Virus record (IMG/VR): IMGVR_UViG_3300048104_000827
Coordinates: 1-40,033 of that record
DNA length: 40,033 nucleotides
Origin: a virus
Direction: 5' to 3' (one strand)
Made by a program: the position numbers and the translations under genes. Shown here piece by piece: positions 116 to 21,531 of the stretch. Position 1 is the first letter of the stretch; each line of letters opens with the position of its first letter. The notes below the pieces were generated by a model that saw nothing but the letters and a program-made list of their open reading frames with translations, searched no databases and had not been told where the DNA came from.

Positions 116-3100
116 ATGGCAGGTATTAGGGCACAGTTAAATTTAGAAGTAAACTCCGACAAGGTTAAAAGAAGTTTACAAAAAGCAACCAGTGAAATTA
201 ACAAAATAGTTAATAAAACTGCTGGTAAACAAGTTGGCTTCAATGTTAACGAGAAAAGCTTTACTCAACCTCTCGGTAGAATTAATGCATCCGCCAATGA
301 GTTTAGTAAATCACTAGAAGCTTCTAATGCTCGGGTTATAGCCTTCGGGGCTTCTGTAGCGATTATAGATGGAATATCTGACGCTTTTAAGAATTTAGTG
401 ATACAGGCGGTCAACTTCGAGAAAACGTTAGCAGATATTAACGCAGTAATGAGTTTGTCTAATAGCCAGCTAGAGGCTTTTGGTTCAAATTTATTCGAGG
501 CGGCTAAAAGCACAGCTCAAGGTTTTAATGTCGCAGCTGAAGCCGCCTTAGAGTTCTCTAGGCAAGGCTTATCTACAGAAGAGGTTATTAGGCGCACAAA
601 TGACGCTTTAATCCTTACTAGGTTGACTAGTTTAAAAGCTACCGATGCTGTGTCAGGATTAACCGCTGCGATCAATGCTTTTGGTGGAGCTGGGCTTAGC
701 ACTACTGATATTATAGATAAATTATCCGCTGTTGATGTTAATTTTGCAGTTAGCTCCGCTGACTTAATTAATGCTCTGCAGAGGTCCGGGGCTGTTGCTA
801 TTGACGCTGGAGTGGAATTAGATAAATTAATCGGTATTGTTGCGGCATTGCAACAAACCACGGCCAGAGGCGGGGCAGTGATTGGTAATAGTTTAAAAAC
901 TATTTTTACAAGAATACAAAGACCCGAGTCAATAAAGCAAATTGAAAATCTTGGAATAGTTGTAAGAGACTTAAGCGGCGCTGTTCTGCCTGCTGATAAG
1001 ATCTTGGTAAATATGGCTAACTCTTTCGACGAATTAACTCAGGCGCAACAATCAAATGTTGTTCAGTTTTCAGCAGGAATTTTTCAAGCCAACGTTTTTA
1101 GGGCAGCACTTGCCGATTTAGCTAAAGAAAATAGTCTAACAACAAAAGCTACAGAAATATCTGCAAATGCATCCGGGGAAGCTGCAAGAAAAAATGAAAT
1201 TTTAAATCAAACCATTTCCGCAATGTCCTCAAGAGCGGCTACTAGCTTACAAGAGCTTGCGGCTGTTATGGGAGAGCTGGGATTAAGTGATTCAATTGGC
1301 ACGGCTTTAGAGTTTGTTAATGATAGGGTCTCTGAAATAAAGGATGGCTTAGGAGGAGGGGAGGCAGAAGGTAGTGATTTCGCGAAAGGGCTAGTGCGGG
1401 GTATTGGTAATGTTTTAACTGGTCCAGGTGTTATAGCTTTTGGCGCTATTTTTATAAAGCTATTTTTTAATATAGCTAAATTCGCCCAAAGCTCCATGAA
1501 GGATGTTTTGGGGATAGTTAATCGCAAAGAACAACTTCGACAAATGGAAGAATCTATAGTTAGGGTGATGGGGGAAAATGCGAATATCCAGCAAGCCTTA
1601 AATAACTTAGAGGGAGACCGAGCGTCTCAAGAAGCTTTCATTTTGGGTATTATAGAAAGGCAAACTAACGCACTACAAAAGCAAAAAGCACTAGCAAGAG
1701 ATCTTTCTTCAACTTTGCTAAACAAGGGGGTGTCGACTGATCTCACATATCAAACCAAGGGTTCGGAAATGGTAGATCTAGACGGCAATGGAAAACCTGA
1801 CCTTCCATATACTGCTAGAGGTCTTTTGCCGGAGCAAAAACTATCAGAGAGGGTAGGCGCGCTTAGAGCTGGTTACACTCCAGGAGAAGTAGCCACAACG
1901 AACATTAAAGGGCTGGGTCAAGTTATATATAACAAAGCAGAGACAATAAAACAATTCCCAGGCATGGAGCAACCCGCAATTATGCCGCCCAAACAAAGTA
2001 AAGCTGGCGGAAAGTATTCAGAAAAATTTCAGGAAAAGCATGGCTTTGATCCATATGCAAGTCAGGGTTTTGTGCCTAACTTTGCTTCTTTAATGGGACA
2101 TAAGCTAGTAATGAATAAGTCTAAGTTTAAACTTTTTGGGAACTCTAAAGACCTAGGATCTGCTATAGGGGAAAAATGGATGGATATAGAGGAGAAAATA
2201 AAAAACAAAGCCCCAGTCACAATAAACTCAAGTTTAAATAAAATTATCAACTCCTCTAGTGACAACAGCAACAAAGCTCCTACAAAAAAAGAGCGTTTAT
2301 ATAAAACCTTCGTGTCTCTTGCCAGTGCTGGAGTTAGGTCGATTGAGAGAGACTTTGATGTACGACCTATTCCTAAAACCAGAAATACAAAACAACTCAA
2401 AGGCGAAAACTCAGCCCAGTTTGCAGAGAGAAGGGTGATAAACCAACTAAACCAGGAGCAACAATTAAATAAAGATCAAGGGTTGGATCATTCTAAATAC
2501 ATTGCAACCAGAGACCCTGTGACAAAAAAGGGGGTAGCGACTTACCCTATTGATACGATAGCTCTCGGCCAAAGCTTCCCTTCTTATGAAGTAAAATCTG
2601 GAGAACTAATTGCCGCAAATTTAATATCGAAAAGCTTAAGGATGGCCTCCGATACAGAACTAGAAGATTGGATGAAGTCTCAAGGTATGATAAAAAAAGA
2701 CCTGGGCGAAAGAAATTTATCTGCTGCCCAAAGATTGGCCCAAAAATTAGGTATAAAAGGAACAGGGGAGGGTGAAGAATTCACTCAAGAAGACGCAGAA
2801 GAATGGGGAATGAATAAGGGTTTCATTCCTAACTTTAAAAAATTATATAGAGGCACATCGGGATACCCGGGATCAAGAGCTACCAATGTGGCTGGAGCAT
2901 ACTGGGATAATCCAGTAAATCTATATAAGGATGTAATTCAAAGATCCATGCAAGCCACGGATGAACTTCAGGCAAAAGCTCCTACTGTATTCAAAAACAA
3001 AATGACTTACGGAGTAGATGAATATAATATAAATGATTCATTGTTTAATCAATTGAGCACAGGGGTATATAAAGCTCAAAATGTAATTAAGTTAAAAAAG

Positions 3101-6100
3101 TTTGTTGATAATTTTGATCTGGATGACATTAGGCATAGCGATGGAATTGATGAGGATTTCTATGATGGTGCTCAAGAAGAAAGAGGCCGAGCGATTGATA
3201 GCATGAAAAAACAAAAGGGTTCCAAAAAAATACCAGGAACCGCATCAAACCCATTGCCATTAATACAAGAACTAAGAAAAGGAGTATATAGTTTTCCTGA
3301 TTTAGGGCGAGGTAGTGAATATAGGGACAGCTTACTTAAGAGGGATGAAGACCAAATAGAGAATCTTTTCGACTGGAAAAAAACAGGCGGAAGAAAACTG
3401 AACCCAGAGTTTCAAAATAATAGAGGCTTTTTTGAGGGTGTGAGCGGTCATGGTGGCGATAAAGCTCTTAGGGGCAGTATGTTTGGTGGTAAGGCTGGCT
3501 TAAGGCAGGCCATGGAATCAAGCGCTGGATTAATACCAAACTTTGGGGCTCAGGGCAGTGGCAGAGGGCGCAACTGGAAAGAAGCTTATGAAAACTTAAT
3601 AAAATTGTATAATGATGGAAAAATAAACAGTGCGCTAGATATCAGCAATGCAATGGGAATAACAAAGGGAGTATTATCAAACTATGCATTAGATAAAACG
3701 CAGAAAAAGGCTAATGGGAAGGAGTATCGTTACGCGACGGGAATGATCAATGAAATAGGTCAAGACGGATACGAAGAATTCCAAAGAATTTATGATGAGT
3801 TTGTTATAAAAAATATAGCTAATAAAAAATTCTCAGAAGGTCGAGACTATGAGGCTTTGATTGGTTGGTTAATAGGGCAATCACCTGGATATAATTCAAG
3901 GCTTGATTGGACTGGAGCAAGAACCGTAATAAGACCTCCCGAGGGTTCGAAATTAAATATTTCAGATTATATTGGAAATAGTAAACGACGTATAGCTGCA
4001 GAAACACTTGCTAAGAAAAGCTTTGATGCTCAACAGGGGGCTGGGCACAACCATGGTGTGTTATACGACAAAATAACTGACGGTTTAAACTTGAGCCCAA
4101 AGCCTGGAGAGCCTTTTGATACTAGAGAGTCATTATTTAGGGAGATAGTTCAAGATGGTCCAGGAGTAGATCCAGTAAGCAAACAGCATAAGATGAAGGT
4201 CTTAGGTGGTGCTTATTTTAAGTATACCAAAGACACGTTCCAACCAACAAAAAAAGTTCTAAACGCGTGGGAAAATCATAAAACGAAGTCAAGTGGCATT
4301 AATAGCGATGGATTATCCCACGATGGTTTCGTCCCAAACTTTCATTACTGGCAAAAATTTATCAAATGGTCTAAAGGTCCAAATGGCTGGGGTCTTAGGG
4401 GAGATGATTTTACTTTAACAGATTTTGCTAATTATTTACAAAACCATACGGACACCAACCCACAAGAGATTGCAAAAATAAATAAACAAATTCAAGGGTT
4501 TAAAGCAAAGGCAAGTAAAGACCTAAAGGGTCTTGGCGGCCCATCTATGGGGAGGGAGGGTGCTAAACATTATGCGTCAAGATCTGCGATTCAAGACAGA
4601 AAGGGCACGATTGATTTAAATGGTATTTTTATTAAAAACCTTAAAGACAAGGTTGATAAGTATAACAGCGGCAGAAGTTTAGGTTCCTTTAGTGATGCAT
4701 CAAGCGGCCTCATTCCAAACTTTGCAGATATAATTCCTTTTGATAATACCACTCCTTTTAAGAAGAAAACAATCAAGTCAAAAAACTTGATGCATCAAGA
4801 ATACTTGAAGGCATATGCTGAAGGCGAGAATCAATTCAAATCAGGACAAACTATGCTGCAGTTTTTGTCTCAGTTTTATGACCCTAAGACTTTACAAGAC
4901 CTTCGAAAATACCCCGAAGATTATAACATATTATCCGAAGGATTTATTCCTAATTTTTCAAGGGGGCCTGTGCCTAACTTCGCCAATCCGTTAATGGATG
5001 CGATCAACAGAGAAAGATCTGCGGGTTTGCCTGACTCAAAAATTAGAGTAGAAAAAAGCCCTCAATTAAAGAGTCCAAAAAACCCAATGGGTTTAGCGGT
5101 GACAAATACACGTGATGAGCCAGGGGGCGTGCAACAAGGCATTAGTAGAGCAAGAAAAATGGGAATCAACCCAAAAGAGCATGGAGCTGCTCATGGTTTA
5201 GTGCCTAATTTTGTTATGGGTATCGCGGGTACAGAAAGCTATGGGCAGGGGTCTTTAAAAAAACCAAAGTTGAGAGGCCCATCTGCTGGTTTTGAAAACG
5301 TGACAAAAAGTCTAAAAAGTTTAAATAACGAAGTAGACGATTTAACCGACAAGATAAATAACCAACAAGAATCAATAAATTCTGAGACTGAGGCTAGAGA
5401 CAACTCTCAATCAGCGCAAATAGATGGGTTGCAAAAACTATTTTATATGCAGTCAACTATTAGTATGGCAAACGGATTTTTGCAACAATTCGCAGAAACT
5501 GGAACTGGGGCGGCCAAACAGCTTGCTGAGTTTAGCCTTGGTTTAAGCGATACATTATCTACATTTATAACTGCAAAAGAAGTTGGAAATCAATTAATGG
5601 ATCTTGCTGACATTAAACCAGAAGAAGGGGTGGGTATACAAGAAATTATTGGATCAAAAAGAGTCAAAGACTTATCGTCAGGAAAAGGTCTATCGGCCAC
5701 TGTATCAAAGGCGATGGGTGGGGTTATGAATTTTGGCAAGGGATTACTTAGGTTTGCTCCCCTGATCGGTCAGGCTGTTACAGCGTTCACCGCAGTAAAT
5801 AGCGCAGTAAAGCAATTTGGTCATTTACTTGGGTTTGAGCAGGGGGCCGGGATAATGGATTTATTTTCTAGCGCCTCAGAAAGAGCGACTAGAAGCATAG
5901 AAAGGTTGTCTAAATCAACAGAGGCTCTTGAAAACACCTTAGGTGCGTTACAATCACAATCAGAGAACACAGAAAAAATACAAGAACTTGAATCTATGGG
6001 GAGCTTGAGAACCCAAAAACAAGAAGCAGAATTGTTCAAATTAAAAATGAAAGATTTGGATATTCAGACTAAAGTTCAAAAATCTATGTCTCAACTTTTT

Positions 6101-9100
6101 GAGAAGAATGTTGTGGGTAGCGCGATAGCAGGACAATTAAGCGAGCAATTTTCACAAAGCGGGATCACTGTAGAAGAGCAAACCAGCACATTACAAAAAT
6201 TAATTAAAGTACAAAAACAAAGAATTGCAATAGAGCAAGGCACGGAAGCATTTGGAAAATTAATTCAGGAAAAATTCAACGACCTCACAAGTGGCTTTGA
6301 TTTCAGTACAATTAGCGGGCAAGACGCTAAGCTTCTTCAGCAAGCATCTGGCTTTAGGGGTGCTCAAGCAGGGATGGCGTTAAGCGGCGTTATGGCTGGA
6401 GGGGAAGAATTAGATGCAAAAGAAAGGCTAAATATTTTATCGGAAAATATTAGTGTAGTTGGTCAGTTTGATTTAAATAAAATAACTGAAAGCTCGGTCC
6501 GCAGTATTCGAGAAACGTTATCAAGCCAACTTAAAGGAACTAAAGAATTCGGAGGAGCGCTAATAGCAAGTCACATTGCAGACATTATTGATACAATTGA
6601 TGATGCAGAAGACAATGTGTCGGGCTTTCAAAAAGTAGAAGCCAAAGCTATAAAGCATGCTCTTGATGCTTTTGTCACCCAGCTTAAAAAACAAAAAAAT
6701 AAGCTAGAGAAATCTGACGCCGCAGAAGATTTTGAACAGAGCACTAAACAAGTTAGAGACGCCTATGTAAGAATCATAGCGGAATACAAAAATCAGAGAC
6801 AACAATTAATTCATCAAAACTCTATATCAGATAAAATTAATTCGACTCAAAGAAAGATCCTAGAATCTACTGACGGAATCTTGGCTCAATACGGTGGGAT
6901 TTCAAGTGATTTTGAAATTAGGCAAAAAACAGAAAGGGAACTTGCGAGCATAAATGAAAAATATAAATCAGCGGTAGATAAATACAACGTAGAATCATTA
7001 AAGGGGATGCAAAAAACTGCAGAAAGTTTAATAAATACTGGACAGCTCGCTCAAGATTTTACATTAGGAATGGAAAGGTCAAAGGAAGCCGTAAAAAAAC
7101 TTGCTTCAAACTTATCAACAGGAGTTAATCTTGATCAATTATCTTCTATTGTAAATAGGTTGGGGGTTGATTTGTCTTCAGCCCAATCAATTAAGCTTGA
7201 TGAGTTATTTTTAAAAATTGCAAGCGAAGCAAGCTCGATGAAGGATAACGGGGAGGTTGTTAATGCATTAATGAAGGAATACGGAAAAATTCTTGATCCA
7301 ACTGTTGCCGCTGCATTCTTAGTAGCATTAAATGAAAAGAAAATAGCCGGTCTTCAGGAGAAAGATATCCAAGCGTTATCAGAACGAGTTAAAAACCACG
7401 AAAGATCAGTAGAAAGCGCGAAAGTAGACCAAGAAACTAGTCAAAAAATACTAAAGCAAAAAGAGATTCAAGAGTTAATACAAAAAAAGACTGTCGATGG
7501 AGCTATAAACTTAGAGAAATTATTATCTAAGCAGGGCGACTTTTCCAGCAAAGCCTTGAAAGAAATACAGGGCGAAGCTGCGACATTAAAAGTATTAAAT
7601 AAATTTCAAAAAGATAGAGTTTCAATTTTAATTAGGAGTGGAAAGCTTGATGAAAAAGCAAGAGAACTACAAATTGAAAAAAACAGAAAAGAGGCAGAGT
7701 CATCAATTCTATCTCTTAAACAGCTAGAAGCTCAACAAGTCATTTTAAACACTCAAAACCAAAGTTCTGAAGAGTATCAAAATATCATAAGAGCCCAACA
7801 AGCCAAACTTAAACAGGAAGTAGTTTCCGCTAAATTATCTCAAGAAGAAGCAAAAGCAAGAGAGGAATTCCTTTCCTATGAAGATACTAGAAAAAGATTA
7901 GCTCAAGCTCAAATAGAAACAGAGCAATCTAACGCCAACACGGCATCATCAATCAATTTGACAAAATTACAACTAGAGGTTGCTCAGAAAAAACTTCTAG
8001 AAAATGTAATGACTCAAATAGAAGAAGAAATCACATCCGCACAAAAAAGCGCCTTAATATCCGCCAAAAAAGTGTCAATACTTAAAGCTTCCAGCAAGCA
8101 GTCAAAACTATTGCAAAAAGCCAACGAACTGCAAGAAGCCTCTAATAAATACCTAGAACTGGAGAACGCTATAAGAAAAGCTACAATCAGTAAAGGTAGT
8201 TTAGACATCAATGCACAGGCAGATATAAACACAGAAAAAGCTAACAAGATTTCATCTATCAGAGAAAATATAGCAAGAAATAAAATTTTAGCAAATACAG
8301 AAGAATTATCGTCTTTATCTAAACTCGAAATCGAAGAAGAATTACAGTCCACCCAAGGGTCAGCTTTAATAGCGTCTGAAAAAGCCATAATACTTTCAGA
8401 AATGGGCGAACAGGGAAGGCTTTTAAAACAGGCAAACGAACTACAGGCGTCTGCAAATAAATTAATTGAATTAGAAAACGCAATCAGAAAAGCTACGATT
8501 AGTAATGCTGAGTTAAGTTTATCAGTTGGAGCCCAGGTGGGCATTGATAGGGCAGCGTCTGTTGCTGGAACGAGGGCTGCTGCGGCAAGGTCATTAACAA
8601 CAGGAAGACCTGAGGATGCATTGGCTTTTGCTCAAAGCCTGGAAGAAACTAATAAACAGCTTGGAATAGGAAGTAGAACACTTGATAGATTGCGAACAAG
8701 GATAGCAGAAATAAACGTATCCTGGGAAAACCTAGGCGCAGACCTTGTAGATATAGGTCTAGATTCAGCGAGAAGTGGGGTTCAGAAAGTATTTGAAGAG
8801 ATCGGCTCTGGAGCCAAAACAGCAGAGCAAGCGTGGAATGATTTTGGTTTAAATCTAGCCAAGCAATTGCTAGACAGGTTCACACAGGCAAATGTAGACA
8901 GAATATTTGCTAATTTGGCTTACGCTTTTACAGGGGTTGACCCAACTAAGGACGCCGCAAAAGTAGCTAATCAAAACGGACCTTTGGTTCTAGCAATAGA
9001 AGGTTTAAGCGGTCAGAAAGATAGTCTAGCTAGAGCCACTAAAGGCTTACAGGCAGAATTGAGGTCTGGCATTAATATAAGAGCAGATAAAATCGATACA

Positions 9101-11716
9101 TCTTTATCTAAACAAGCCGAAGTTTTAACTGAACCTTTACGTTTATTACGTAATAAAATAGAAGATTTGACGAAGGCAGTGCTAAGAGATGTTGAGTCAC
9201 GAGTGGTAAAAGATAGTAAGGAGGGCGATGCTCCAGACCTCTCTGGACCAGCGGCCTTGAATATACGCGAAGATAAACAAAAAGCTTTCGAAAGCAAGCA
9301 AAAATCTCAAGCTAAGGGTCGATCAAGCGCGCTCTCTAACAAATTATCCCAAGAATTTAGCGAAATAGATTCTAGTATTCCTTTGAGACCCTTGCAGGAT
9401 GTGACAAGCAATGTATCTAAATATTCGCAAAAGGCGCAAGAGCAAGAAAGTATAACCAACCCAATAGATTTATTAAGCAAAGAAAAAAAAGAAGATATCG
9501 TGGCTGCAATGTCTGTTAGGTTTAAAAACCATGAACCAACTTATAGCGCTGATGTTTTTAACCGAAACGCAAAAGGGTTTGTAGATTCCACAGCTTATCA
9601 AGAACCGATGGTTCCTCCAAACGCAGGATATGAGATCTTTAGACCTTTAAATCATATATTTCCTAATGACGAACCGACGGTAGGAAACAGAAGTTTAGAG
9701 GAAGCTGCTCAATCATCTGGTTTGGCATCTTCAGAAGCCGCACAATTAAGCAATTTAAATGAAGCATATTTGGGATTAAACAAACTAAACGAAAGTCTTT
9801 TAGATTTAAAATACGCGACAGAAGAAACTCCTGTCAAAGATTTAGCCTTAAAGGATCTTGATTCTGACCTTAATAATCTCGTTGTGTCTGCTACTGGAGC
9901 TAGTCTTCCGATACAGGGAGTGAAACAAGCCATTGTGATGTTAGCTGACACGATGAAAGCTAAAGCTAAAGAAATACAAAACTTGATGAACTCTATGGGT
10001 CTTTCTACTTCGCCTCCACCTGATCAGGGAACTAGTTCACCTGATAGTAAGCATTTTGGAGGAATGGTACAAAAATTTGCGAAAGGAGGGTTTGTTAAGG
10101 GTCCGCGCGGGGAAGATAAGGTCCCGGCAATGTTAACCGCCGGAGAATATGTAATACCAAAAGAAAGAGTAAAACAACTAGCCCAAAGAGACGAGTTGCA
10201 GTATTTATATAAAGGCGGAGGGGTGAAAGCTCAATACACAAACAACGCAGAATCAGATAGATTTGTCGCAGGAATTAAAGGGGCAACCCAAGCAGCTACT
10301 ATGGCCATAGTTACTGACAAGCTCGGCGACTCAATCAATAAAAAACAAGACACACCACCGACGTTCAATAAGCAAAAACTAAAAAATCTAGATTTAGGAT
10401 CAGATGTTAGTTTAAGAAGTGGAGATCCTAGATTAAGTGGGAAAGCATTAGCTCGTGATCCAGCTATGGCCGAATACAGAGATTACTTAATGGATTTAGC
10501 CGCCTACAGAAATCAAAAGAAAAATGAAAAATTTCAAAAAAGAATGGGTGTTTTTAGTTCGATATTAAGTTCGGTTCATTCTTTGGTACTTGGAGAAGTT
10601 ACAGAAATAGCAAAGGAACCTATCAATAAATACGTAGTAAACCCGATAAAGAATGCAGCTTCATCAGTTGCAACAAAAGCCGATAATTGGAGGGGTAAAA
10701 CTTTTGGAAAATATTCAAAACAATACGAAACAGCTTCAAATCTTGCAGACCAAAAAGGCTACGATTTAAACTATAAAGATTTTAGAAACTCAATGGATGG
10801 GTACAAGGGAGAGTTAAAGGATTTAGGTTTTTATGCGGATCAAGGGGGGATAAAATTTTTAAGCCCAACAAGTGGTGAGGTGTATGACATGAATTCTTTA
10901 GAATCTATACGCAGTATGCCGACTTCAGACCAAATGATGGTTTATCGCTCTAAAGCTTTAATAAACCCTCATAACAGAAGCATTACTATGGATCAGTTTG
11001 TAAAGCAAGATTCTGCTTTTTACAACAACCAGCGGCTTGATACAGAGAGCAGAAATAAATATACCAAAGCCGCCCGAAGGGCTTCTGGGGGTTCAATTCC
11101 GACAATGCTAACAGACGGAGAAGCTATCATACCTTCTGAAATAGCAAAAAGAATAGGTTATTCTAGTCTAACTAAAATGAATAAGACTGGCGAAATACCT
11201 ATTGTATCTGGAAAAAAAGGAATCGATAAAGTTGGGCCTGTTGGATTAACACCTGGAGATTTTGTAATACGCAAAAGCTCAACAGATAAATTACTAAAAG
11301 AAAACCCCCGCATGATGAGGTTTGCAATGCAAAACCCAGATGGGTTCAGAAAAGCAGAGCAAAGATATTATCAAGGTGGCATAGTGGGGACCTCTGGTTC
11401 AAGCGTTCAAGTTCCAAGCGTAAATCAAACTACAGGTACAGGCTCAAGAACGACCAGTCAACCTATAAATAGAATACAGCCATTAATATCATCAAGCCAA
11501 CAAAATGCCCCGCAGAAAATTCAACAACAAGCAAAGAACGACGTAACAAACAATATAAACGTAAGCGTAACGGTTGATCAATCTGGAAACGAAAAAGTTT
11601 CTAACGAGGCGGGTGGTAATAAATTCGAGCAAGAGCAGGCCCTTGCAATGAAAATAAAAACAAAGGTGATTGAAGTTATAAGAGAAGAGAAGAGAATAGG
11701 CGGAGAGCTTGGATAA
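116..11716 (+). CDS. Phage tail tape measure protein (TP901 type) with inserted VPNF-motif modules
   Basis: This protein sets tail length and is packed inside the tail tube. At 3866 residues it is several times longer than lambda gpH (about 850). Residues about 80-290 match the TP901 tape measure core (motifs such as FEKTLADINAVMS and TARGGAVIGNSLKTIF). A hydrophobic helix lies at about 433-458. Residues 651-1700 are atypical: eight G-x-[IV]-PNF motifs (651, 902, 1138, 1404, 1531, 1609, 1617, 1694) separate unrelated-looking modules, the first with a PD-(D/E)XK-like signature (E771, D813, E825-V-K827). Residues about 1720-2900 are mostly coiled coil and include a 104-residue-period duplication (from 2635 and 2739). 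The C-terminal part carries three copies of a P-x-M-L-T-x-G-E-x-[IV]-I-type motif (near 3330, 3660, 3700), common in tape measure proteins. AAGGA just upstream supports the ATG. The stop overlaps the next start (TAATG). Confidence 0.96.
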   Translation: MAGIRAQLNLEVNSDKVKRSLQKATSEINKIVNKTAGKQVGFNVNEKSFTQPLGRINASANEFSKSLEASNARVIAFGASVAIIDGISDAFKNLVIQAVNFEKTLADINAVMSLSNSQLEAFGSNLFEAAKSTAQGFNVAAEAALEFSRQGLSTEEVIRRTNDALILTRLTSLKATDAVSGLTAAINAFGGAGLSTTDIIDKLSAVDVNFAVSSADLINALQRSGAVAIDAGVELDKLIGIVAALQQTTARGGAVIGNSLKTIFTRIQRPESIKQIENLGIVVRDLSGAVLPADKILVNMANSFDELTQAQQSNVVQFSAGIFQANVFRAALADLAKENSLTTKATEISANASGEAARKNEILNQTISAMSSRAATSLQELAAVMGELGLSDSIGTALEFVNDRVSEIKDGLGGGEAEGSDFAKGLVRGIGNVLTGPGVIAFGAIFIKLFFNIAKFAQSSMKDVLGIVNRKEQLRQMEESIVRVMGENANIQQALNNLEGDRASQEAFILGIIERQTNALQKQKALARDLSSTLLNKGVSTDLTYQTKGSEMVDLDGNGKPDLPYTARGLLPEQKLSERVGALRAGYTPGEVATTNIKGLGQVIYNKAETIKQFPGMEQPAIMPPKQSKAGGKYSEKFQEKHGFDPYASQGFVPNFASLMGHKLVMNKSKFKLFGNSKDLGSAIGEKWMDIEEKIKNKAPVTINSSLNKIINSSSDNSNKAPTKKERLYKTFVSLASAGVRSIERDFDVRPIPKTRNTKQLKGENSAQFAERRVINQLNQEQQLNKDQGLDHSKYIATRDPVTKKGVATYPIDTIALGQSFPSYEVKSGELIAANLISKSLRMASDTELEDWMKSQGMIKKDLGERNLSAAQRLAQKLGIKGTGEGEEFTQEDAEEWGMNKGFIPNFKKLYRGTSGYPGSRATNVAGAYWDNPVNLYKDVIQRSMQATDELQAKAPTVFKNKMTYGVDEYNINDSLFNQLSTGVYKAQNVIKLKKFVDNFDLDDIRHSDGIDEDFYDGAQEERGRAIDSMKKQKGSKKIPGTASNPLPLIQELRKGVYSFPDLGRGSEYRDSLLKRDEDQIENLFDWKKTGGRKLNPEFQNNRGFFEGVSGHGGDKALRGSMFGGKAGLRQAMESSAGLIPNFGAQGSGRGRNWKEAYENLIKLYNDGKINSALDISNAMGITKGVLSNYALDKTQKKANGKEYRYATGMINEIGQDGYEEFQRIYDEFVIKNIANKKFSEGRDYEALIGWLIGQSPGYNSRLDWTGARTVIRPPEGSKLNISDYIGNSKRRIAAETLAKKSFDAQQGAGHNHGVLYDKITDGLNLSPKPGEPFDTRESLFREIVQDGPGVDPVSKQHKMKVLGGAYFKYTKDTFQPTKKVLNAWENHKTKSSGINSDGLSHDGFVPNFHYWQKFIKWSKGPNGWGLRGDDFTLTDFANYLQNHTDTNPQEIAKINKQIQGFKAKASKDLKGLGGPSMGREGAKHYASRSAIQDRKGTIDLNGIFIKNLKDKVDKYNSGRSLGSFSDASSGLIPNFADIIPFDNTTPFKKKTIKSKNLMHQEYLKAYAEGENQFKSGQTMLQFLSQFYDPKTLQDLRKYPEDYNILSEGFIPNFSRGPVPNFANPLMDAINRERSAGLPDSKIRVEKSPQLKSPKNPMGLAVTNTRDEPGGVQQGISRARKMGINPKEHGAAHGLVPNFVMGIAGTESYGQGSLKKPKLRGPSAGFENVTKSLKSLNNEVDDLTDKINNQQESINSETEARDNSQSAQIDGLQKLFYMQSTISMANGFLQQFAETGTGAAKQLAEFSLGLSDTLSTFITAKEVGNQLMDLADIKPEEGVGIQEIIGSKRVKDLSSGKGLSATVSKAMGGVMNFGKGLLRFAPLIGQAVTAFTAVNSAVKQFGHLLGFEQGAGIMDLFSSASERATRSIERLSKSTEALENTLGALQSQSENTEKIQELESMGSLRTQKQEAELFKLKMKDLDIQTKVQKSMSQLFEKNVVGSAIAGQLSEQFSQSGITVEEQTSTLQKLIKVQKQRIAIEQGTEAFGKLIQEKFNDLTSGFDFSTISGQDAKLLQQASGFRGAQAGMALSGVMAGGEELDAKERLNILSENISVVGQFDLNKITESSVRSIRETLSSQLKGTKEFGGALIASHIADIIDTIDDAEDNVSGFQKVEAKAIKHALDAFVTQLKKQKNKLEKSDAAEDFEQSTKQVRDAYVRIIAEYKNQRQQLIHQNSISDKINSTQRKILESTDGILAQYGGISSDFEIRQKTERELASINEKYKSAVDKYNVESLKGMQKTAESLINTGQLAQDFTLGMERSKEAVKKLASNLSTGVNLDQLSSIVNRLGVDLSSAQSIKLDELFLKIASEASSMKDNGEVVNALMKEYGKILDPTVAAAFLVALNEKKIAGLQEKDIQALSERVKNHERSVESAKVDQETSQKILKQKEIQELIQKKTVDGAINLEKLLSKQGDFSSKALKEIQGEAATLKVLNKFQKDRVSILIRSGKLDEKARELQIEKNRKEAESSILSLKQLEAQQVILNTQNQSSEEYQNIIRAQQAKLKQEVVSAKLSQEEAKAREEFLSYEDTRKRLAQAQIETEQSNANTASSINLTKLQLEVAQKKLLENVMTQIEEEITSAQKSALISAKKVSILKASSKQSKLLQKANELQEASNKYLELENAIRKATISKGSLDINAQADINTEKANKISSIRENIARNKILANTEELSSLSKLEIEEELQSTQGSALIASEKAIILSEMGEQGRLLKQANELQASANKLIELENAIRKATISNAELSLSVGAQVGIDRAASVAGTRAAAARSLTTGRPEDALAFAQSLEETNKQLGIGSRTLDRLRTRIAEINVSWENLGADLVDIGLDSARSGVQKVFEEIGSGAKTAEQAWNDFGLNLAKQLLDRFTQANVDRIFANLAYAFTGVDPTKDAAKVANQNGPLVLAIEGLSGQKDSLARATKGLQAELRSGINIRADKIDTSLSKQAEVLTEPLRLLRNKIEDLTKAVLRDVESRVVKDSKEGDAPDLSGPAALNIREDKQKAFESKQKSQAKGRSSALSNKLSQEFSEIDSSIPLRPLQDVTSNVSKYSQKAQEQESITNPIDLLSKEKKEDIVAAMSVRFKNHEPTYSADVFNRNAKGFVDSTAYQEPMVPPNAGYEIFRPLNHIFPNDEPTVGNRSLEEAAQSSGLASSEAAQLSNLNEAYLGLNKLNESLLDLKYATEETPVKDLALKDLDSDLNNLVVSATGASLPIQGVKQAIVMLADTMKAKAKEIQNLMNSMGLSTSPPPDQGTSSPDSKHFGGMVQKFAKGGFVKGPRGEDKVPAMLTAGEYVIPKERVKQLAQRDELQYLYKGGGVKAQYTNNAESDRFVAGIKGATQAATMAIVTDKLGDSINKKQDTPPTFNKQKLKNLDLGSDVSLRSGDPRLSGKALARDPAMAEYRDYLMDLAAYRNQKKNEKFQKRMGVFSSILSSVHSLVLGEVTEIAKEPINKYVVNPIKNAASSVATKADNWRGKTFGKYSKQYETASNLADQKGYDLNYKDFRNSMDGYKGELKDLGFYADQGGIKFLSPTSGEVYDMNSLESIRSMPTSDQMMVYRSKALINPHNRSITMDQFVKQDSAFYNNQRLDTESRNKYTKAARRASGGSIPTMLTDGEAIIPSEIAKRIGYSSLTKMNKTGEIPIVSGKKGIDKVGPVGLTPGDFVIRKSSTDKLLKENPRMMRFAMQNPDGFRKAEQRYYQGGIVGTSGSSVQVPSVNQTTGTGSRTTSQPINRIQPLISSSQQNAPQKIQQQAKNDVTNNINVSVTVDQSGNEKVSNEAGGNKFEQEQALAMKIKTKVIEVIREEKRIGGELG
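2066..5215 (+). repeat. Array of eight G-x-[IV]-PNF motifs within the tape measure gene
   Basis: The heptapeptide GFVPNFA and its variants (GFIPNFK, GLIPNFG, GFVPNFH, GLIPNFA, GFIPNFS, GPVPNFA, GLVPNFV) recur in frame, starting at nucleotides 2066, 2819, 3527, 4325, 4706, 4940, 4964 and 5195. Spacings are 251, 236, 266, 127, 78, 8 and 77 residues. The DNA between copies is not repetitive, so this is a protein-level punctuation signal rather than a DNA repeat. I recall similar motifs in large proteins of uncultured marine phages but know of no assigned function. Confidence 0.85.
8018..8539 (+). repeat. Two-copy internal duplication in the tape measure coiled coil
   Basis: About 70 residues beginning IEEEITSAQKSALI (residue 2635) recur as IEEELQSTQGSALI (residue 2739). 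Both copies run through LL-x-x-ANELQ and LENAIRKATIS. The offset is exactly 312 bases (104 residues). The nucleotides have diverged, so the duplication is old. Periodic units of this kind are how tape measure proteins gain or lose length. Confidence 0.8.
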
Positions 11717-12789: not shown

Positions 12790-13981
12790 GCCTTTTTATA
12801 GATACGAAGATGTCCCTGTTCTCTTGGCTTCTGAAGGAGAATATCCCGTTATGGTGTTCGCTTCTGCAGCTAGAATTTCTGCAAACCAACCGCTTGAAGC
12901 TAAAAAATTCACCGAAGATTATAATATATCATTCGCCCAACAAACAGAAGATGTATACTTCAAGGAAGCCCACTATTCCGGTTTTTTACTAGGAGACCCT
13001 AATGGACTAGGGATGAAAATACCAAGTTCGATTGAAATTATTAAAAGTGGCCAAAAAATATCTTACCCAAATGGACAAGCTTTATATATGGCTGAAGACG
13101 CGTTTCCTGGGGATTACCATATTAATGTATACTCAACAGGTGAGACCAGGCTTGATCTGATTGAAGATGTACCATATGGAGAGATTGACATAGTTAGAAC
13201 ATATTCCGCGCAAGGAGCAATAAGGGGAAGGCTTAGTGTTGACTATTACATGAACACGGGTAATTTAGATACTTTTGCAAACCTGACTGGTTTGCTTGAT
13301 CCAACAATATACCCTCAGGTTAATGAAGGTAAGGTTACTGGCTCGATTGGGGACTATATATTTAAAGATGCTTATCTAACCACTCTATCTTTTTCCGCTC
13401 AACCCTTCGAACCAATAGTAGCAAATTTAGAGCTAGACATATACGGAAAAATGGAATATTCTGAAGGTTTTGGGGAGGCGGCTTTGAGTACATACGATTG
13501 CGTAAGAGAGCAACAAAACACAGTTCCTCACGCAATGAACACTAAGATTTATGGAGCTAACAGCGTAGGAATAAATTACCCTTTATCTTTTGATTACAAT
13601 ATAAGCGCAAACAGAATCCCTGAAATACCAGTACCTATCAATGGTTATAGCAGCGATGATGGCGAACTACCGGTCAGGGTTTGCAAAAACGAAATCGATA
13701 TCACAGTAAGCCTTGAGGGGGAAAAGCTAGATCCATTTTTAAAAATCACTGGACAAAGAGCAGATGTCACCATCAAGTTATCTGATATAGGTTTTGAAGA
13801 AGAATTTACCGACAACAACCATGGACTGCTAAAAGAATTTAAATTGGCTGGAAAATTAACTTTACCCGAAGAAGTACCCGCAGAGCTAGAACAATACGGA
13901 GTTAAAGACGAGGACGCTATATCTGTATCAGAGGGAGGTTTTTTGAGGGGTAGGGCAACCATAAGACAATCTTACAGGTAA
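12782..13981 (+). CDS. Tail structural protein, paralog of the previous gene
   Basis: The protein has 399 residues if it starts at the ATG at 12782, whose ATGGGTAA overlaps the previous stop by 8 bases. A TTG nine bases upstream is also in frame, but no ribosome binding site supports it over the ATG. It is beta-rich. The middle contains a tail-tube-like segment (RGRLSVDYYMNTGNLDTF, later TTLSFSAQPFEPIVANLELD and YGK). The C-terminal half resembles that of the upstream protein (LSFDYNISANRIPEIPVPIN, then a PVRV..NEIDITVSLEGE strand). It probably forms part of the distal tail. The stop overlaps the next start in TAATG. Confidence 0.75.
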   Translation: MGKPFYRYEDVPVLLASEGEYPVMVFASAARISANQPLEAKKFTEDYNISFAQQTEDVYFKEAHYSGFLLGDPNGLGMKIPSSIEIIKSGQKISYPNGQALYMAEDAFPGDYHINVYSTGETRLDLIEDVPYGEIDIVRTYSAQGAIRGRLSVDYYMNTGNLDTFANLTGLLDPTIYPQVNEGKVTGSIGDYIFKDAYLTTLSFSAQPFEPIVANLELDIYGKMEYSEGFGEAALSTYDCVREQQNTVPHAMNTKIYGANSVGINYPLSFDYNISANRIPEIPVPINGYSSDDGELPVRVCKNEIDITVSLEGEKLDPFLKITGQRADVTIKLSDIGFEEEFTDNNHGLLKEFKLAGKLTLPEEVPAELEQYGVKDEDAISVSEGGFLRGRATIRQSYR

Positions 13982-16900
13982 TGGATATTGCGGCAAAAAA
14001 TTGGGAGGTTGGAAAAAGTTATAAAGTTGACGACATAGTCAGGGCTGGAAACTTATCCTTGCCTTATTATGTGAACACAAAAAAACCCAAAGACGAAGAT
14101 GGGTATTTTGATAAAGCCGGAGCAAATAAAATTATAACAGATGGTGAAGAAAAAATAACCACAGATGTCCCGGATTTTTTAATTATGGATCAAAAGGTAA
14201 GAGGCGAAATTTTTGATAAAAAAACTTTTGATGATTCTGGGCAAATAGAGTTTGGTTACTATTTTCCTATAAATAAAAAATTAGATTACAAGTCAAGGGT
14301 AAGAATCAAAAAGAAAGACTCTTCGTCTGATACCATAGACCCATACAACACTTTTCTTCATAAGAATCAAAGAGGTTCAATCAACCCTTATTTGTCTATA
14401 GGAATAGGTATAGGTGTTAAGTTTTTAGATTCAAGTCAAGGGGAAGTTAAGCCTAAAGATTACAGAAAAACTATGAGGCTAATGGCGTCTTCTGAAATCA
14501 ATCACAAAGAATATTACAATGCTCAGTTGTACATAAACTCAGAAGATATACCTGATAGAGCTGTAGCTGGGGTGACTTTTATATTTGCATACGGAGTAGA
14601 TCAGGGCGCGTTCATGTTTAGGGATATAAAAACGACCACTGCTAGCGAATATTTTTATTGCACTCAAGATCATTACTCTTGGGTTGGGAGTATACCAGGA
14701 GCTAATGAAAGTAAGTACTGGACTCAGGACTTTAAGTGGAGACCTTCATATGGATCAAACGCAAGTTTTGCGTCTATAAATGAAGAGCTTAAAATGGGGG
14801 ACGGTTCGGACTATGTTAATTCATTGGCAATTAATTCTTTACCGATGCAAGTAGATGTTTTATTTGATAATCGAACCGATAGAGAGGCTAAGGCTATTAT
14901 GCATTTTTTGCAAGAAAAGCACTATGCTTACGAATCAATATTTGCTATAGATTACAAGGGGGATAGATTGCTTTCTAGCGATGTTGGTTGTTTTAATTTT
15001 AATTATACTCATCCTTATAGAAAAGATTTAAAATTTACATGTATTGATTTTACTCATAATATCAAGTATAGAAACAATAACAGTATAAGTGCAAAGTTAA
15101 TATGTAGAACAGAAAGTATATTAAGAAGTGTTGAAAGTAATTCTGGTTTTAACGAAAGACTTGACGCTATTGTCAAAATATTTATAGACAAGACCACTAA
15201 GTTCGTAAAAGGCAAAAAAATAAAACTAAATACTTTTTCTATGCAAGATGAAGAAGTAGATGAATATGGAAATGTTATCAGTCCTGGTTTGAGAAAATTA
15301 GGAGCAGTTAAATATATAGAGGGTTTTAGTTATAACGAAGAAGGGAGGCCGACATTCGGCAAAATAGAATTCATTGAACCTCAGGACCTTGATAGGTTAG
15401 ATTGCGTTTATATTAACCCTGTAAACTCACAAGATTCCGTATACAATTTAACTAAAACAAATATACATGCAGCTATAGACGAAAAAACATTTATATTTGG
15501 ACCGCTACCAGAAACTGGCGACCCATCTGATCTTGGGGGTTTTGATTATCTTTTAAGTGATGATGAGTCTAAATTAGATTCAGATGACGAAAGACAAATT
15601 ACAATAAACAACCCAAACGAGAATCCAAATATTGAGGTTAAAAAATTCGTAAGATGCCCAGAAGACTGCATGTCTAATGCCCCATTTTTTCCAGAGGGTG
15701 TAGAGTCCATAACTAGCAAGTTAATAGATCCAGATACCGGAGAAGAAATGAAAAGAGTGGTATTTTTGAAAAACTTCAGACGGTTACAACTCGAAACAGA
15801 GATAACAAGAACCACTACCACAATTGAATTTACGCCGCTTTCATCTTTTACCCTTGAAGCGGAAGATGACTTTGAATTATTAGTCCCGGCTGCGCGAGGT
15901 AGAAAAAGTATTTATATCTCAAACCCAGATAGGGTCGCTAAATTCCCTTGGGCTAAAGTGAGGACTTTTGAAAACAGACCAAGCTTAACTTTTACCTTGT
16001 CTAATACCCCAGCCAACATCAAAACTGCTTTCCTTAAGTTCTACCAAAAGGAATACAAAAAAGAGATAAATCAAAACATGTCTCGGTTTACGGTGGTTTT
16101 TGATCAAAGAGACGACGAGGAAGCTGCGGAGATATTACAGTTTTTAGAGAGCCATTTGGGTCACAGAAAATTTAATTTTACTTTACCTAGACCATACATT
16201 GCAGACTCTGGATCAGAAACTACTCCAGCTAGAAAAAGAACCTCTGTATTTTATTGTCCTGGTTGGTCTCATGAAATTGTTTATAAAAACAACCACAAAA
16301 TAACTGCTACATTCATAGAGTCTACTACGTCTTTAAACGAAAGTCTAGGTGACATGAAGGGACCATGTGCAAGCGCATCAGCTTTCAATTTATTAACTAA
16401 CCACGAACTTTGTACGTTTTCTTCTGTTGCTACTGCAACACATCAAGAGGGGTTGAATTACATAAAAAAGAGTAATAGTTATGATATAAATTTAAGTAAA
16501 AAAATAGTTGAAATGGTATTTGTTGTGGACGCAAACCCTTCTATGCTATCTCAATATTTAAATGTTGCCGGAACCTCTATATCAAAATATAACGCAATAA
16601 GAGATGTAATATTAAAATTGGTTACAGGGTACGATGAAGACAAATTCCCTGGAACCATATCTTACGGGGGAGCTTACGATACTCCAAGTATATCAAAGGG
16701 AATAGGAATGGATGGTGAGCATACGCCCCCCTGGTACGCAAGCTACAATTCTGATGGTACTGCATATAGTAGTTTGCTTAATCAGTATTACGACCCAAAC
16801 CCTTCCAGGACAAAAGAATCCATTAAAACATTAGAAGAAAATGGATATTTTACTGATAACCTGTTTAGGTTTAATTTTGATATTAGGGATTTTTCTATAA

Positions 16901-18963
16901 ACATAGGAGTCCTTTTAATTGGAGACAGATCTAGCTTAGACAAACCGCTGATCGGAGACAAGATGGTAGAAATACCGGACCACCCAAAGAGTTTTGATAA
17001 AATAGAAATATATAAAGCCCTAACAAGCTATTCTCCAAATAATGTATACGGAAAAAACGTGTTAAACGTTACTTGTGATGCTATGGCTCAATTTTTCAAT
17101 AGCCCAAAAGCTGGAATAGTTGATGAGAGGTATGTTTTTATGATAAGTGACTTTAAGTTTAATAGCACAAATAATAATGGGTTATTAAGCATTATTCAAC
17201 AAAGCAAGCCCGGAGGAGAACTAGCAAAAAGGAGACCACTTGACTCTGTGTTAAAAAAATATGGAAGTTCTGGGTTTACGATTCATGATAGGGTTGATGA
17301 ATACGCAGGAACCGAATCTAGTTGGAAGACGGGGTTTGTTGATAGTTTCGAGGTGACGTACACTAATCTATATAACCCAGATTTTACGGACACATATCAC
17401 CCGTCTGAATTTTCCTCTTCAGAGCTTCCGTACGTACCAGGGCTGCAAAATAAAACATGGTACCAAGAATCTATTCCAACTACGTTTGTCCCGATTGGCA
17501 TAGGAGCGTCCAAAGGGGTGAACACAAATTTCTTTAAATATTCAACGGATCACCAAGCTTATGGAAAAGATTATCTAAGTTATGACATTAGTAATGCGAA
17601 CCCTGGGTCTAAAGAAGCCCAAAGAACAGTTAGACTAGTAGATGCAATTTCCGCTATAACAAAAAACTCTAATTCAGACAAAATATTCTCTGTAACTATT
17701 AAAAATTGTGGACCTAATGATATAAGGCTTTACAATACAATTGTATCTTTTGAGCAGTCTAGTGGCAGGGAAAAATGGAGGACTGAACTTATAGAAGCAG
17801 GAATACCCAGTGGGCAAGATATTCGAAATATAAAAGAAGTTGACACCGCAAGTTCTCGACCAGAGCCAACAATAGGGCATGGAGGTCAATATTATAACGA
17901 TATAAATAATGAAAAATTATTAGAAGATAAAAAATCAAACATCCTGTGGAAAACTTTCAACAATAAATATGAAGTTTATCGCAAAGGTCAAGTGCATGAA
18001 ATAAACGGAGGATGGAAGCCGGACACTATAAAGTACCCTATAATCACAGATTCCGGGCAAAATATAATTCTTGATAGTGGCGCCCCTCTGGTAACTGATC
18101 CAGTAGTTATATCCCCCATAAAAACTGAAGGAATTTTTAACTATGGAGTGGCTTTTAAAAATTATCCAGTAAGAGTATTTGGCGACAAAGTTGGATTAAA
18201 TATAATAGATTATAACATAACAAATATCTCAAAAGAAAATGAATACTTAGGTTCATACGATCACCTGCCAATTATAAAAAGAAACGAAACCTTAGATTTG
18301 TTTTTCGGCGTCAGACACAAGGGGCCAGTAGAAAATTTAAACGAAAATGTTCAGTTGTTTTTTAATACTAAAGATGTAGAAGACGGAAGAATGGATTGCT
18401 ATGCCGACTTTTCATTTAATATAAACATGAATAAAGAAGGTTACGAGATAGAAGAACCTAAAATATTCCTAGATAGATGTAGGGGAAGGGTGTTGGCTAT
18501 TGCAATGTGCAACGCTAACGCGGCCAAAGATGATGCTTTTAGGATACATTTAAATGACCAGCCTGTGGCAGATTTTAGGAACCTAATGTATAACCAAGCA
18601 AAGGGTGATGTTTTGTTGTTTGCAGACGACCCAGACAAAGATGATGCAGCAAAAATATATAACATATTAAATACAGGGTTGTCGTGCTCTCCAGGCAACA
18701 TGAGGAAACATTATGCGCCTTACAGTTCAATAAGATGGGGTAACCCGCCAAACAAGATATACTTACAAAACATAGGCAATGTAAATAATGGAAACTGGGG
18801 CCAGTTAATATTTGTTTCGTATAAAGTAGGATTTCCATCAACTTCAGACCCGGGGTTAAATAGAACCTTAGCCCAGCCAAAAATACTAAAAACAGTAACC
18901 TATTCTGGACGTAGCGGGGCTAACTTTGGGCCATTTTATGTAAGAATAGATAGTTGTCAGTAA
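13981..18963 (+). CDS. Large multidomain tail protein with duplicated tail domain and vWA-like region
   Basis: The protein has 1660 residues, in the tail-tip part of the operon. Residues 8-45 look like a small CBM5/12-type module (NW..GKSYKVDDIV...YYV). A tail domain occurs twice, at about 285-375 and 695-785. Both copies contain an F-D-x-R-x-D-x-EA helix start, a FL..H segment, and then an aromatic C..W/F.H...Y.N stretch. Residues about 843-1070 resemble a divergent von Willebrand A fold: MVFVVDANPSM (D850, replacing the classical DxSxS), a following helix, an INIGVLLIGD strand and FMISDF (D1057). The remainder is beta-rich and Ig-like, with scattered cysteines. Its role is probably tail-tip assembly or adhesion. 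It lies between tail genes with TAATG coupling on both sides. The vWA call is a fold inference and less certain than the tail role. Confidence 0.8.
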   Translation: MDIAAKNWEVGKSYKVDDIVRAGNLSLPYYVNTKKPKDEDGYFDKAGANKIITDGEEKITTDVPDFLIMDQKVRGEIFDKKTFDDSGQIEFGYYFPINKKLDYKSRVRIKKKDSSSDTIDPYNTFLHKNQRGSINPYLSIGIGIGVKFLDSSQGEVKPKDYRKTMRLMASSEINHKEYYNAQLYINSEDIPDRAVAGVTFIFAYGVDQGAFMFRDIKTTTASEYFYCTQDHYSWVGSIPGANESKYWTQDFKWRPSYGSNASFASINEELKMGDGSDYVNSLAINSLPMQVDVLFDNRTDREAKAIMHFLQEKHYAYESIFAIDYKGDRLLSSDVGCFNFNYTHPYRKDLKFTCIDFTHNIKYRNNNSISAKLICRTESILRSVESNSGFNERLDAIVKIFIDKTTKFVKGKKIKLNTFSMQDEEVDEYGNVISPGLRKLGAVKYIEGFSYNEEGRPTFGKIEFIEPQDLDRLDCVYINPVNSQDSVYNLTKTNIHAAIDEKTFIFGPLPETGDPSDLGGFDYLLSDDESKLDSDDERQITINNPNENPNIEVKKFVRCPEDCMSNAPFFPEGVESITSKLIDPDTGEEMKRVVFLKNFRRLQLETEITRTTTTIEFTPLSSFTLEAEDDFELLVPAARGRKSIYISNPDRVAKFPWAKVRTFENRPSLTFTLSNTPANIKTAFLKFYQKEYKKEINQNMSRFTVVFDQRDDEEAAEILQFLESHLGHRKFNFTLPRPYIADSGSETTPARKRTSVFYCPGWSHEIVYKNNHKITATFIESTTSLNESLGDMKGPCASASAFNLLTNHELCTFSSVATATHQEGLNYIKKSNSYDINLSKKIVEMVFVVDANPSMLSQYLNVAGTSISKYNAIRDVILKLVTGYDEDKFPGTISYGGAYDTPSISKGIGMDGEHTPPWYASYNSDGTAYSSLLNQYYDPNPSRTKESIKTLEENGYFTDNLFRFNFDIRDFSINIGVLLIGDRSSLDKPLIGDKMVEIPDHPKSFDKIEIYKALTSYSPNNVYGKNVLNVTCDAMAQFFNSPKAGIVDERYVFMISDFKFNSTNNNGLLSIIQQSKPGGELAKRRPLDSVLKKYGSSGFTIHDRVDEYAGTESSWKTGFVDSFEVTYTNLYNPDFTDTYHPSEFSSSELPYVPGLQNKTWYQESIPTTFVPIGIGASKGVNTNFFKYSTDHQAYGKDYLSYDISNANPGSKEAQRTVRLVDAISAITKNSNSDKIFSVTIKNCGPNDIRLYNTIVSFEQSSGREKWRTELIEAGIPSGQDIRNIKEVDTASSRPEPTIGHGGQYYNDINNEKLLEDKKSNILWKTFNNKYEVYRKGQVHEINGGWKPDTIKYPIITDSGQNIILDSGAPLVTDPVVISPIKTEGIFNYGVAFKNYPVRVFGDKVGLNIIDYNITNISKENEYLGSYDHLPIIKRNETLDLFFGVRHKGPVENLNENVQLFFNTKDVEDGRMDCYADFSFNINMNKEGYEIEEPKIFLDRCRGRVLAIAMCNANAAKDDAFRIHLNDQPVADFRNLMYNQAKGDVLLFADDPDKDDAAKIYNILNTGLSCSPGNMRKHYAPYSSIRWGNPPNKIYLQNIGNVNNGNWGQLIFVSYKVGFPSTSDPGLNRTLAQPKILKTVTYSGRSGANFGPFYVRIDSCQ

Positions 18964-20493: not shown

Positions 20494-21531
20494 ATGAGAA
20501 ACACACAAGCGCACGTAAAGTCATTGTTTGATATATCCCCATCGACAATAATATGCTTATACAAGATTGATTTAAAGGACAAGGGGGAGTATTTGTTTCA
20601 CGCAGGAGAAAACGGTTTTAGAGGTAAAATAATATTTAATGGAGACCCTTATGATTTTTTCCCAATACAAGTTGAAGGGTTCGAAATGCATGGAGATGGT
20701 AGGTTACCTAGGCCAAAAATGATATTCTCTAATCACCAAGGAAACATATCAATAAGACTTGGGGTTTACAAAGATTTCATTAATTATAAAGTAACAAGAA
20801 TAAAAACTTTCGTAAAATACTTAGATAAAGAAAACTTCCCTGATAGCGTCAACCCTTTTGCTGATCCAGACCCTGATGCTTCTTTTTCTCAAGATGTGTA
20901 TTATGTAAATCAAAAAACAAAAGAAGACGATAATATTGTTGAGTTTGAATTAGTGTCTTTATTGGAATTGCAAAATGCAAAAATACCTGCGAGAACTATT
21001 TATTCGAACTACTGTCCGTGGCAATATAGATCAAACATTGGATGCAGGTACAAGGGGAAGCCGATAGCAGATAAAAAAAATAAAAGATTTGTACCTAGTG
21101 GATACAATGGAGCAATGGTTGGAGAAGAAGTATACATGGAGGGAAGTATTCTTGATGAAGAATTTGCAAAAACGGGAGAAGATGGGTTTTACCCAAAATG
21201 GGATAGATCTAAAAAATACCAAAGAGGGGACATTGTGAGAATCGAACCATTCGACGAAGACAAAGAAATATATCCAGTAAGTATTTACGTATGTTTAAAA
21301 GATGAAACAAGATCTTTTCCGGCAACAGACTCAGAAAATTGGGTGATAGACGCCTGCGATAAAACATTATGTGGCTGTAAATTAAGGTTTGGAGATAATT
21401 CACCAGAGGCGGGAGGAGGATTAAGGGGAGACGTATCAAAGGCAAATCATTCTCAGCAATGGACGGAAAATGGAGGTCAAGGATTACCCTTTGGTGGGTT
21501 TCCTGGAGTAGATCCTTATGAGTTTAAGTAA
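20494..21531 (+). CDS. Minor tail protein L-like, Fe-S tail-tip protein
   Basis: The protein has 345 residues and matches the lambda gpL family: a beta-rich N-terminal domain (GKIIFNGDPYDFFPIQVEGF, then RLPRPKM) and a C-terminal cysteine domain. Lambda gpL binds a 4Fe-4S cluster through C173, C182, C205 and C212. Here C174, C184, C288 and C295 occupy the equivalent places (with C293 extra), and the last pair keeps the six-residue spacing of C205-C212. The roughly 100 residues between the pairs hold an inserted CBM5/12-like module (W236, Y..GDIV, YVC, W283). It lies one base after the previous stop and overlaps the gpK-like gene by 14 bases, the classic L-K order. It acts at the tail tip with the K and J homologs. 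Confidence 0.9.
   Translation: MRNTQAHVKSLFDISPSTIICLYKIDLKDKGEYLFHAGENGFRGKIIFNGDPYDFFPIQVEGFEMHGDGRLPRPKMIFSNHQGNISIRLGVYKDFINYKVTRIKTFVKYLDKENFPDSVNPFADPDPDASFSQDVYYVNQKTKEDDNIVEFELVSLLELQNAKIPARTIYSNYCPWQYRSNIGCRYKGKPIADKKNKRFVPSGYNGAMVGEEVYMEGSILDEEFAKTGEDGFYPKWDRSKKYQRGDIVRIEPFDEDKEIYPVSIYVCLKDETRSFPATDSENWVIDACDKTLCGCKLRFGDNSPEAGGGLRGDVSKANHSQQWTENGGQGLPFGGFPGVDPYEFK

Follow-up and report, generated by a model that had tools for sequence, protein, structure and literature searches.

Why should the tape measure protein (TMP) of a tailed phage be interrupted by eight copies of one short peptide? The question is raised by a gene encoding 3866 aa at bp 116–11716 of a 40,033-nucleotide virus sequence (IMG/VR record IMGVR_UViG_3300048104_000827, positions 1 to 40,033; this whole stretch is called the window below, and the gene and all features within it lie on the + strand). 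Its product is recognized as a TMP by the conserved tape measure domain PF10145 (PhageMin_Tail; aa 134–316, bp 515–1063; E = 1.4e-22, above the Pfam cut-off) and by matches to tape measure PHROG profiles (best phrog_4211, 2.1e-51). A first-pass annotation, made from the letters alone, had reported eight in-frame PNF motifs bounding foreign modules in this protein, and our motif scan found all eight where it had placed them, at aa 654, 905, 1141, 1407, 1534, 1612, 1620, and 1697 (the first motif starts at bp 2066 and the last F is at bp 5212). The spacings between them (251, 236, 266, 127, 78, 8, and 77 aa) agree with the module lengths then given (251, 236, 266, 127, 78, and 77 residues), the two motifs called adjacent being those 8 aa apart. 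We argue below that the modules are exchangeable cassettes, and that the TMP of this lambda-like siphovirus probably also serves to carry exchangeable effector proteins that would be delivered at injection, a reading to which we give a rough probability of 0.58.

The composition of the window TMP predicts 0.24 copies of PNF and 0.004 of G-x-[ILV]-PNF, versus the eight PNF observed, and when G-x-[IV]-PNF was sought in all open frames of the window none was found outside the TMP. Searches of viral contigs returned 231 loci with a relative of the N-terminal part of the TMP and 414 with a relative of its last module (D0, see below), and the best 80 of each were taken; the 127 TMPs examined comprise 77 nonredundant proteins from the N-terminal search and 50 from the D0 search (48 after a rough redundancy check). 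All of these relatives are metagenomic contigs, and the names of their metagenome-assembled genome bins disagree on the host (Flavobacteriaceae, Halobacteriovorax, and Verrucomicrobiales). Searching other tape measures for the motif, as the first-pass annotation had proposed, recovered at least two copies in 126 of the 127 TMPs. Its strict form, G[FLYHM][IV]PN[FY], was counted 400 times in 209,434 aa of TMP sequence (77 TMPs) and not once in the 338,528 aa contributed by all remaining frames of at least 100 aa at the same loci, and a logo built from 454 sites reads [AS]-x-G-[FLYH]-[IV]-P-N-[FY]-A. All 16 synonymous nonamers that can encode PNF are used; codon choice at the motif is thus free, from which it follows that the motif is selected as a peptide, and an explanation at the DNA level (a recombination or insertion site) is ruled out. 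The most divergent TMP, that of relative L179 on a 208.9-kb contig, has a drifted joint, KGxIPNFA, which suggests that the motif may reach beyond the clade defined here.

The TMPs have a common order: the tape N-terminus, a hydrophobic segment, a conserved entry module (D1), one to ten variable cassettes, a conserved exit module (D0), and a motif-free C-terminal tape, with an array of 395–1373 aa among complete TMPs. In the window, the hydrophobic, transmembrane-like segment is aa 429–458 (bp 1400–1489; KD19 peak 1.94), and 73 of 74 TMPs have an equivalent segment, with KD19 of at least 1.6, directly upstream of the array; such a conserved segment could determine the membrane side on which the cargo array ends up. 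Downstream of it, the sequence GLLPE (aa 569–573, bp 1820–1834) aligns with GLIPNF of the distant relative L006 and represents a ninth motif, that preceding D1, which has decayed in the window's clade. D1 itself (bp 1835–2083; KQFPGMEQPAIMPP...GFDPY) belongs to a 53-member family with the conserved stretch KQFPGMxQPAIMPP, whose QPAIMPP columns are at least 95% conserved, and motif 1 (GFVPNF) occupies bp 2066–2083. There follow module 1 (family D2, bp 2084–2836) with motif 2 (GFIPNF, bp 2819–2836); module 2 (family D15, five members of which stand in other contexts; bp 2837–3544) with motif 3 (GLIPNF, bp 3527–3544); module 3 (family D33, bp 3545–4342) with motif 4 (GFVPNF, bp 4325–4342); module 4 (family D7, 127 aa, found in 8 TMPs; bp 4343–4723) with motif 5 (GLIPNF, bp 4706–4723); and module 5 (family D5, found in 9 TMPs; bp 4724–4957) with motif 6 (GFIPNF, bp 4940–4957). 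Motif 7 (GPVPNF, bp 4964–4981) lies 8 aa past motif 6, and D0 (bp 4982–5212; a 61-member family with NPxGLAVTNTRDEP) is closed by motif 8 (GLVPNF, bp 5195–5212). The C-terminal tape (bp 5213–11716, ∼2,170 aa) has a second hydrophobic stretch at aa 1876–1898 and is free of the motif, which makes it unlikely that the motif is a general contact between tape and tube. The modules have the same G+C content as the rest of the TMP gene, and this speaks against recently acquired DNA of different composition. In one relative (L181:323-4162) the module region is distributed over several frames, each of which has joints, a pattern that points to a broken or split tape gene in that contig.

Do the modules behave as units? 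The 77 TMPs contain 91 module families and the 50 further TMPs add 33, for ∼120 overall (a few of the 33 are tape rather than cassette, as the motif-based cut also takes stray C-terminal matches). More than one neighbor is seen in 38 of the 42 variable families that are present in at least two TMPs. Where a module is shared and its neighbor is not, mean identity is 37–64% inside the module and 5–9% directly past the motif (73 pairs on the left and 79 on the right, with D0 and D1 excluded). The precise insertion of a 152-aa module distinguishes relative L021 from L025, with the switch in ..CCTAATTTTGCA.., and L012 differs from L025 likewise; the L012/L021/L025 switch lies within ..CCNAATTTTGCA... 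These alignments show that the motif marks the joints and is the place where breakpoints fall when cassettes are swapped from one phage to another. The ratio of nonsynonymous to synonymous substitution rates (dN/dS) is ∼0.04–0.4 for most module pairs (0.04–0.11 for module 5), and thus the cargo is maintained by purifying selection.

Module 1 is the cassette of the window for which an enzymatic activity can be predicted. Its putative triad is E771, D813, and E825/K827 (TMP numbering), and the pattern E..D..ExK is invariant in 22 homologs; homologs of this module were found solely in these TMPs. The AlphaFold model is an alpha/beta structure in which the predicted local distance difference test score (pLDDT) is mostly 70–97 and drops to ∼35–50 at the GFIPNF of motif 2, and it presents a helix (bearing the E), then the D, a strand (ExK), and a helix, the helix-strand-strand-helix order of elements of PD-(D/E)xK enzymes. 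The earlier statement that the modules are neither coiled coil nor tape core is borne out for module 1 only; AlphaFold gave no resolved fold for modules 2 and 3. The model of family D3 has the same element order as PD-(D/E)xK, the residues E-D-(D/E)xK are invariant in families D2, D3, D4, and D13/45 with the same residues in D43, and profile-profile comparison joins D3, D4, D13, D42, D43, and D45. Module 1, D2, and D3 are predicted to be PD-(D/E)xK-like, by which we claim likeness and not membership. A match of CDI_toxin_EC869_like to module 1 (0.037) is below the cut-off and misses the putative active site. These nuclease-like families (D2, D3, D4, D13/45, and D43) or a staphylococcal nuclease (SNase) module are present in 65 of the 77 TMPs, and several of the other 12 are truncated.

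Several cassettes in the relatives are recognizable enzymes. The SNase module of L007 (L007:4278-4886) scores 27.9 bits with Pfam against a cut-off of 21 and matches a PHROG endonuclease profile (1e-7), and in an alignment with thermonuclease the active-site R and E and the arginine of YGR all match; D31 is a second family with the SNase pattern. A PcfJ domain lies in a PNF-bounded tape cassette at L173:4021-5931 (Pfam 2.9e-7, above the cut-off), and a HAD-type phosphatase module (FYDFDETLA..TAR..DDAPEN) is like polynucleotide kinase (PNK; PHROG polynucleotide kinase 1.1e-5). Family D8 consists of eight modules like ADP-ribosyltransferase (ART) in which S-x-S and ExE are invariant and YRG is present in seven; no profile or PDB match was found for them, and profiles of the D2, D3, ART-like, and HAD modules compared with PDB sequences gave nothing useful. 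GNAT-like, P-loop, kinase-like, ParB-like, and HExxH modules were recognized by eye only; a tape cassette at L166:5251-5994 contains ALIHEYSHFLDD, an HExxH metallopeptidase-like motif, without support from Pfam. Families D9, D44, and D69, which are weakly linked to module 3, carry an FE..D signature, and the hhalign comparison of D9 with D33 gives P = 5.5e-6, a value not corrected for the 3741 pairs compared. When one representative each of 87 modules was scanned with Pfam, PHROG, and NCBIfam, there were few matches, mostly due to chance, and a TcdB_N match to module 4 (0.0027), being below the cut-off, was ignored. The D0, HAD, kinase-like, and ART-like modules were also searched for in cultured phages, with no match. 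Effector domains of differing activity occur together in a single TMP; for example, L009 has ART-like and nuclease-like modules and L025 has HAD, ART-like, and nuclease-like modules. At the level of sequence, then, the region between D1 and D0 is a row of independent cassettes, each ending with the motif, and several of them are recognizable enzymes. The first-pass suggestion that the tape carries protein cargo gains from the enzyme domains of homologous arrays (SNase, PcfJ, HAD/PNK, ART-like, and PD-(D/E)xK-like), from cassette exchange, and from purifying selection, and neither a continuous helix nor an unconserved motif, which it had named as contrary outcomes, was found.

How might such an array reach the host? 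In phage λ the TMP is located at the inner-membrane ManYZ complex during injection, where it is probably bound by the defense protein SNIPE (PMC13190303), and in a gene transfer agent a trimer of the tape occupies the tail channel and has to depart before the DNA can exit (PMC7296036). Since a TMP thus reaches the inner membrane and leaves ahead of the DNA, the array is placed to enter the cell first. The tail would carry the array and, at injection, pass it into the host, where the modules (nucleases, ADP-ribosyltransferase-like enzymes, phosphatase, and others) could act at once on host DNA, proteins, or defenses. Somewhat less surely, the motif may be a common recognition site through which every cassette can function in every array. 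It stands at all joints, the two that bound the array included, whatever the length of the module, and thus resembles a processing site; its most likely role, again less surely, would be that of a cleavage site that releases the modules from the tape, with a handle for a chaperone as the alternative.

Several observations weigh against a delivered cargo of enzymes. Folded domains of ∼250 aa, in several copies, are hard to fit into a tail lumen of ∼4 nm, and the modules would therefore have to travel unfolded. Within the window an activity is predicted for module 1 only, and modules 2–5 have no assigned function. The AlphaFold model of D3 has a pLDDT of only 61, and Foldseek searches of module 1 and D3 against PDB and of module 1 against BFVD gave no match (in PDB none at E <1), so the PD-(D/E)xK assignment rests on the residue triad and the element order. 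A few pairs have dN/dS near or above 1 (D9, D30, and some D0), of which the high values of the D0 pairs are probably due to misalignment by the ungapped comparison. Lastly, a dedicated protease or motif-binding partner was not found, and the conserved neighboring genes have no informative family match. The fullest form of the carrier reading, in which the siphophage tail is a programmable injector, its TMP being a polyprotein with as many as ten effectors that pass unfolded through the tail tube, are delivered at DNA entry, and are cut apart at a universal PNF joint, and in which phages re-equip by cassette swaps there, is offered as a tentative proposal that we would sooner doubt than assert.

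The nearest rival accepts delivery and differs about the motif: this would be a peptide that docks with the tube wall or with a tail-assembly chaperone, holds the cargo unfolded and threaded, and remains uncut. The motif is short, hydrophobic, and linear and lies in a flexible joint of low model confidence, siphophage tape proteins are bound by assembly chaperones, and bulky domains need unfolding to fit the lumen, so this is a possible role, if on balance a doubtful one: the copies track modules and not length (spacings run from 8 to >400 aa), they also flank the array on its two outer sides, and they are missing from the 2,170-aa C-terminal tape. With one motif per joint for modules of 8 to >400 aa and none in that long tape, per-module processing appears to fit somewhat better than a per-length handle, but between a processing or sorting tag and a chaperone docking peptide, the two roles offered by the first-pass annotation, sequence cannot decide. 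It is unlikely that the modules act within the tape or at the envelope (as fillers that set tail length, or as domains that penetrate wall or membrane) and never in the cytoplasm. Tape proteins with muralytic domains are known, such as SPbeta YomI, annotated as transglycosylase/tape measure, and the transmembrane-like segment that 73 of 74 TMPs have ahead of the array would suit such a role; however, the modules that could be recognized are nucleic-acid, ADP-ribosyl, or phosphate enzymes and not peptidoglycan enzymes, and an array that varies from 395 to 1373 aa across relatives does not favor it.

If the nuclease modules were selfish homing-type elements that spread in frame, with the motif merely tolerating insertion, it would be natural that nuclease-like modules are the most frequent class, and homing nucleases are known to mark exchange boundaries in phages (PMC10448857). 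Non-nuclease modules (HAD and ART-like) are swapped in the same manner, however, no insertion-free TMP was seen among the 127, and conservation of the joint is at the protein level, its codon usage being free, all of which makes this explanation quite improbable. That every relative is a metagenomic contig might raise the suspicion of an artefact of assembly or alignment, which we consider negligible: many independent samples have frames that stay open for as many as 4,000 codons, and this breadth of contigs already refutes it, the DNA that joints have in common is far shorter than assembly k-mers, and the modules are under purifying selection.

The delivered-effector reading has partial parallels among known systems. 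Polymorphic toxin systems exchange a single C-terminal toxin. They resemble the present TMPs in having a constant delivery part and effector cassettes swapped at a conserved boundary (Zhang et al. 2012, PMC3482391), whereas here a virion tape contains up to ten internal cassettes, and every one has a boundary motif of its own. The cognate immunity gene that stands beside the toxin in those systems would not be needed by a virus armed against its own host. Polyvalent proteins likewise combine several domains of unrelated activity, ART included, in one chain that is predicted to be co-injected with DNA, but those of phages are predicted to travel inside the capsid, and the word "tape" is absent from their description (Iyer et al. 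2017, PMC5512222); in the present case the tail TMP is the carrier, with one fixed motif between domains. Tape proteins with enzymatic domains, for example SPbeta YomI, share with ours an enzyme domain inside a siphophage tape. To our knowledge, however, these carry wall-degrading domains, and have neither a shuffling array of nuclease and host-modifying modules nor this motif. The λ tape, gpH, is an ordinary one of <1,000 aa without cargo. Phage λ is similar in that the window has gpM-, gpL-, and gpK-like genes downstream of the tape gene, and in the meeting of its TMP with the inner membrane at injection (PMC13190303). A full-text literature search, with most subscription journals and preprints outside its reach, found neither VPNF, IPNF, or PNFA in a phage tape context nor a published description of a tape measure in which a shuffling array of enzymes is delimited by a motif.

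Noncontractile phage tails are usually regarded as passive pipes and the tape as a measure of length. Should the array prove to be delivered cargo, the tape would serve a widespread uncultured phage group (231 and 414 viral loci matched in the two scans) as a vehicle for several effectors linked by a standard joint, and protein injection through the siphophage tail, together with its signal, would become directly testable. Most of the ∼120 module families have no assigned function, and they would likely act on bacterial DNA, defense, or metabolism at the very start of infection.

The TMP gene heads a tail-tip run, in which it is followed by genes for a tube-like protein (a weak match), gpM, gpL, gpK, and a tail protein. 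The gpM-like gene (bp 13981–18963) encodes a protein of 1660 aa, far larger than the usual gpM, in which the λ gpM-like domain comprises only aa 662–779. The λ gpK-like protein (bp 21518–22243, + strand) has JAB and NlpC/P60 domains (Pfam Prok-JAB 6e-13, NLPC_P60 1.8e-10) and is a speculative candidate for a tape-processing peptidase, with no evidence tying it to the motif. Two glycosyltransferase-family genes (phrog_2170) on the minus strand (bp 29887–31809 and 33191–34276) and an aminotransferase-like gene (bp 38843–39955) probably serve sugar metabolism; they belong to a block with a strand switch at ∼27.55 kb.

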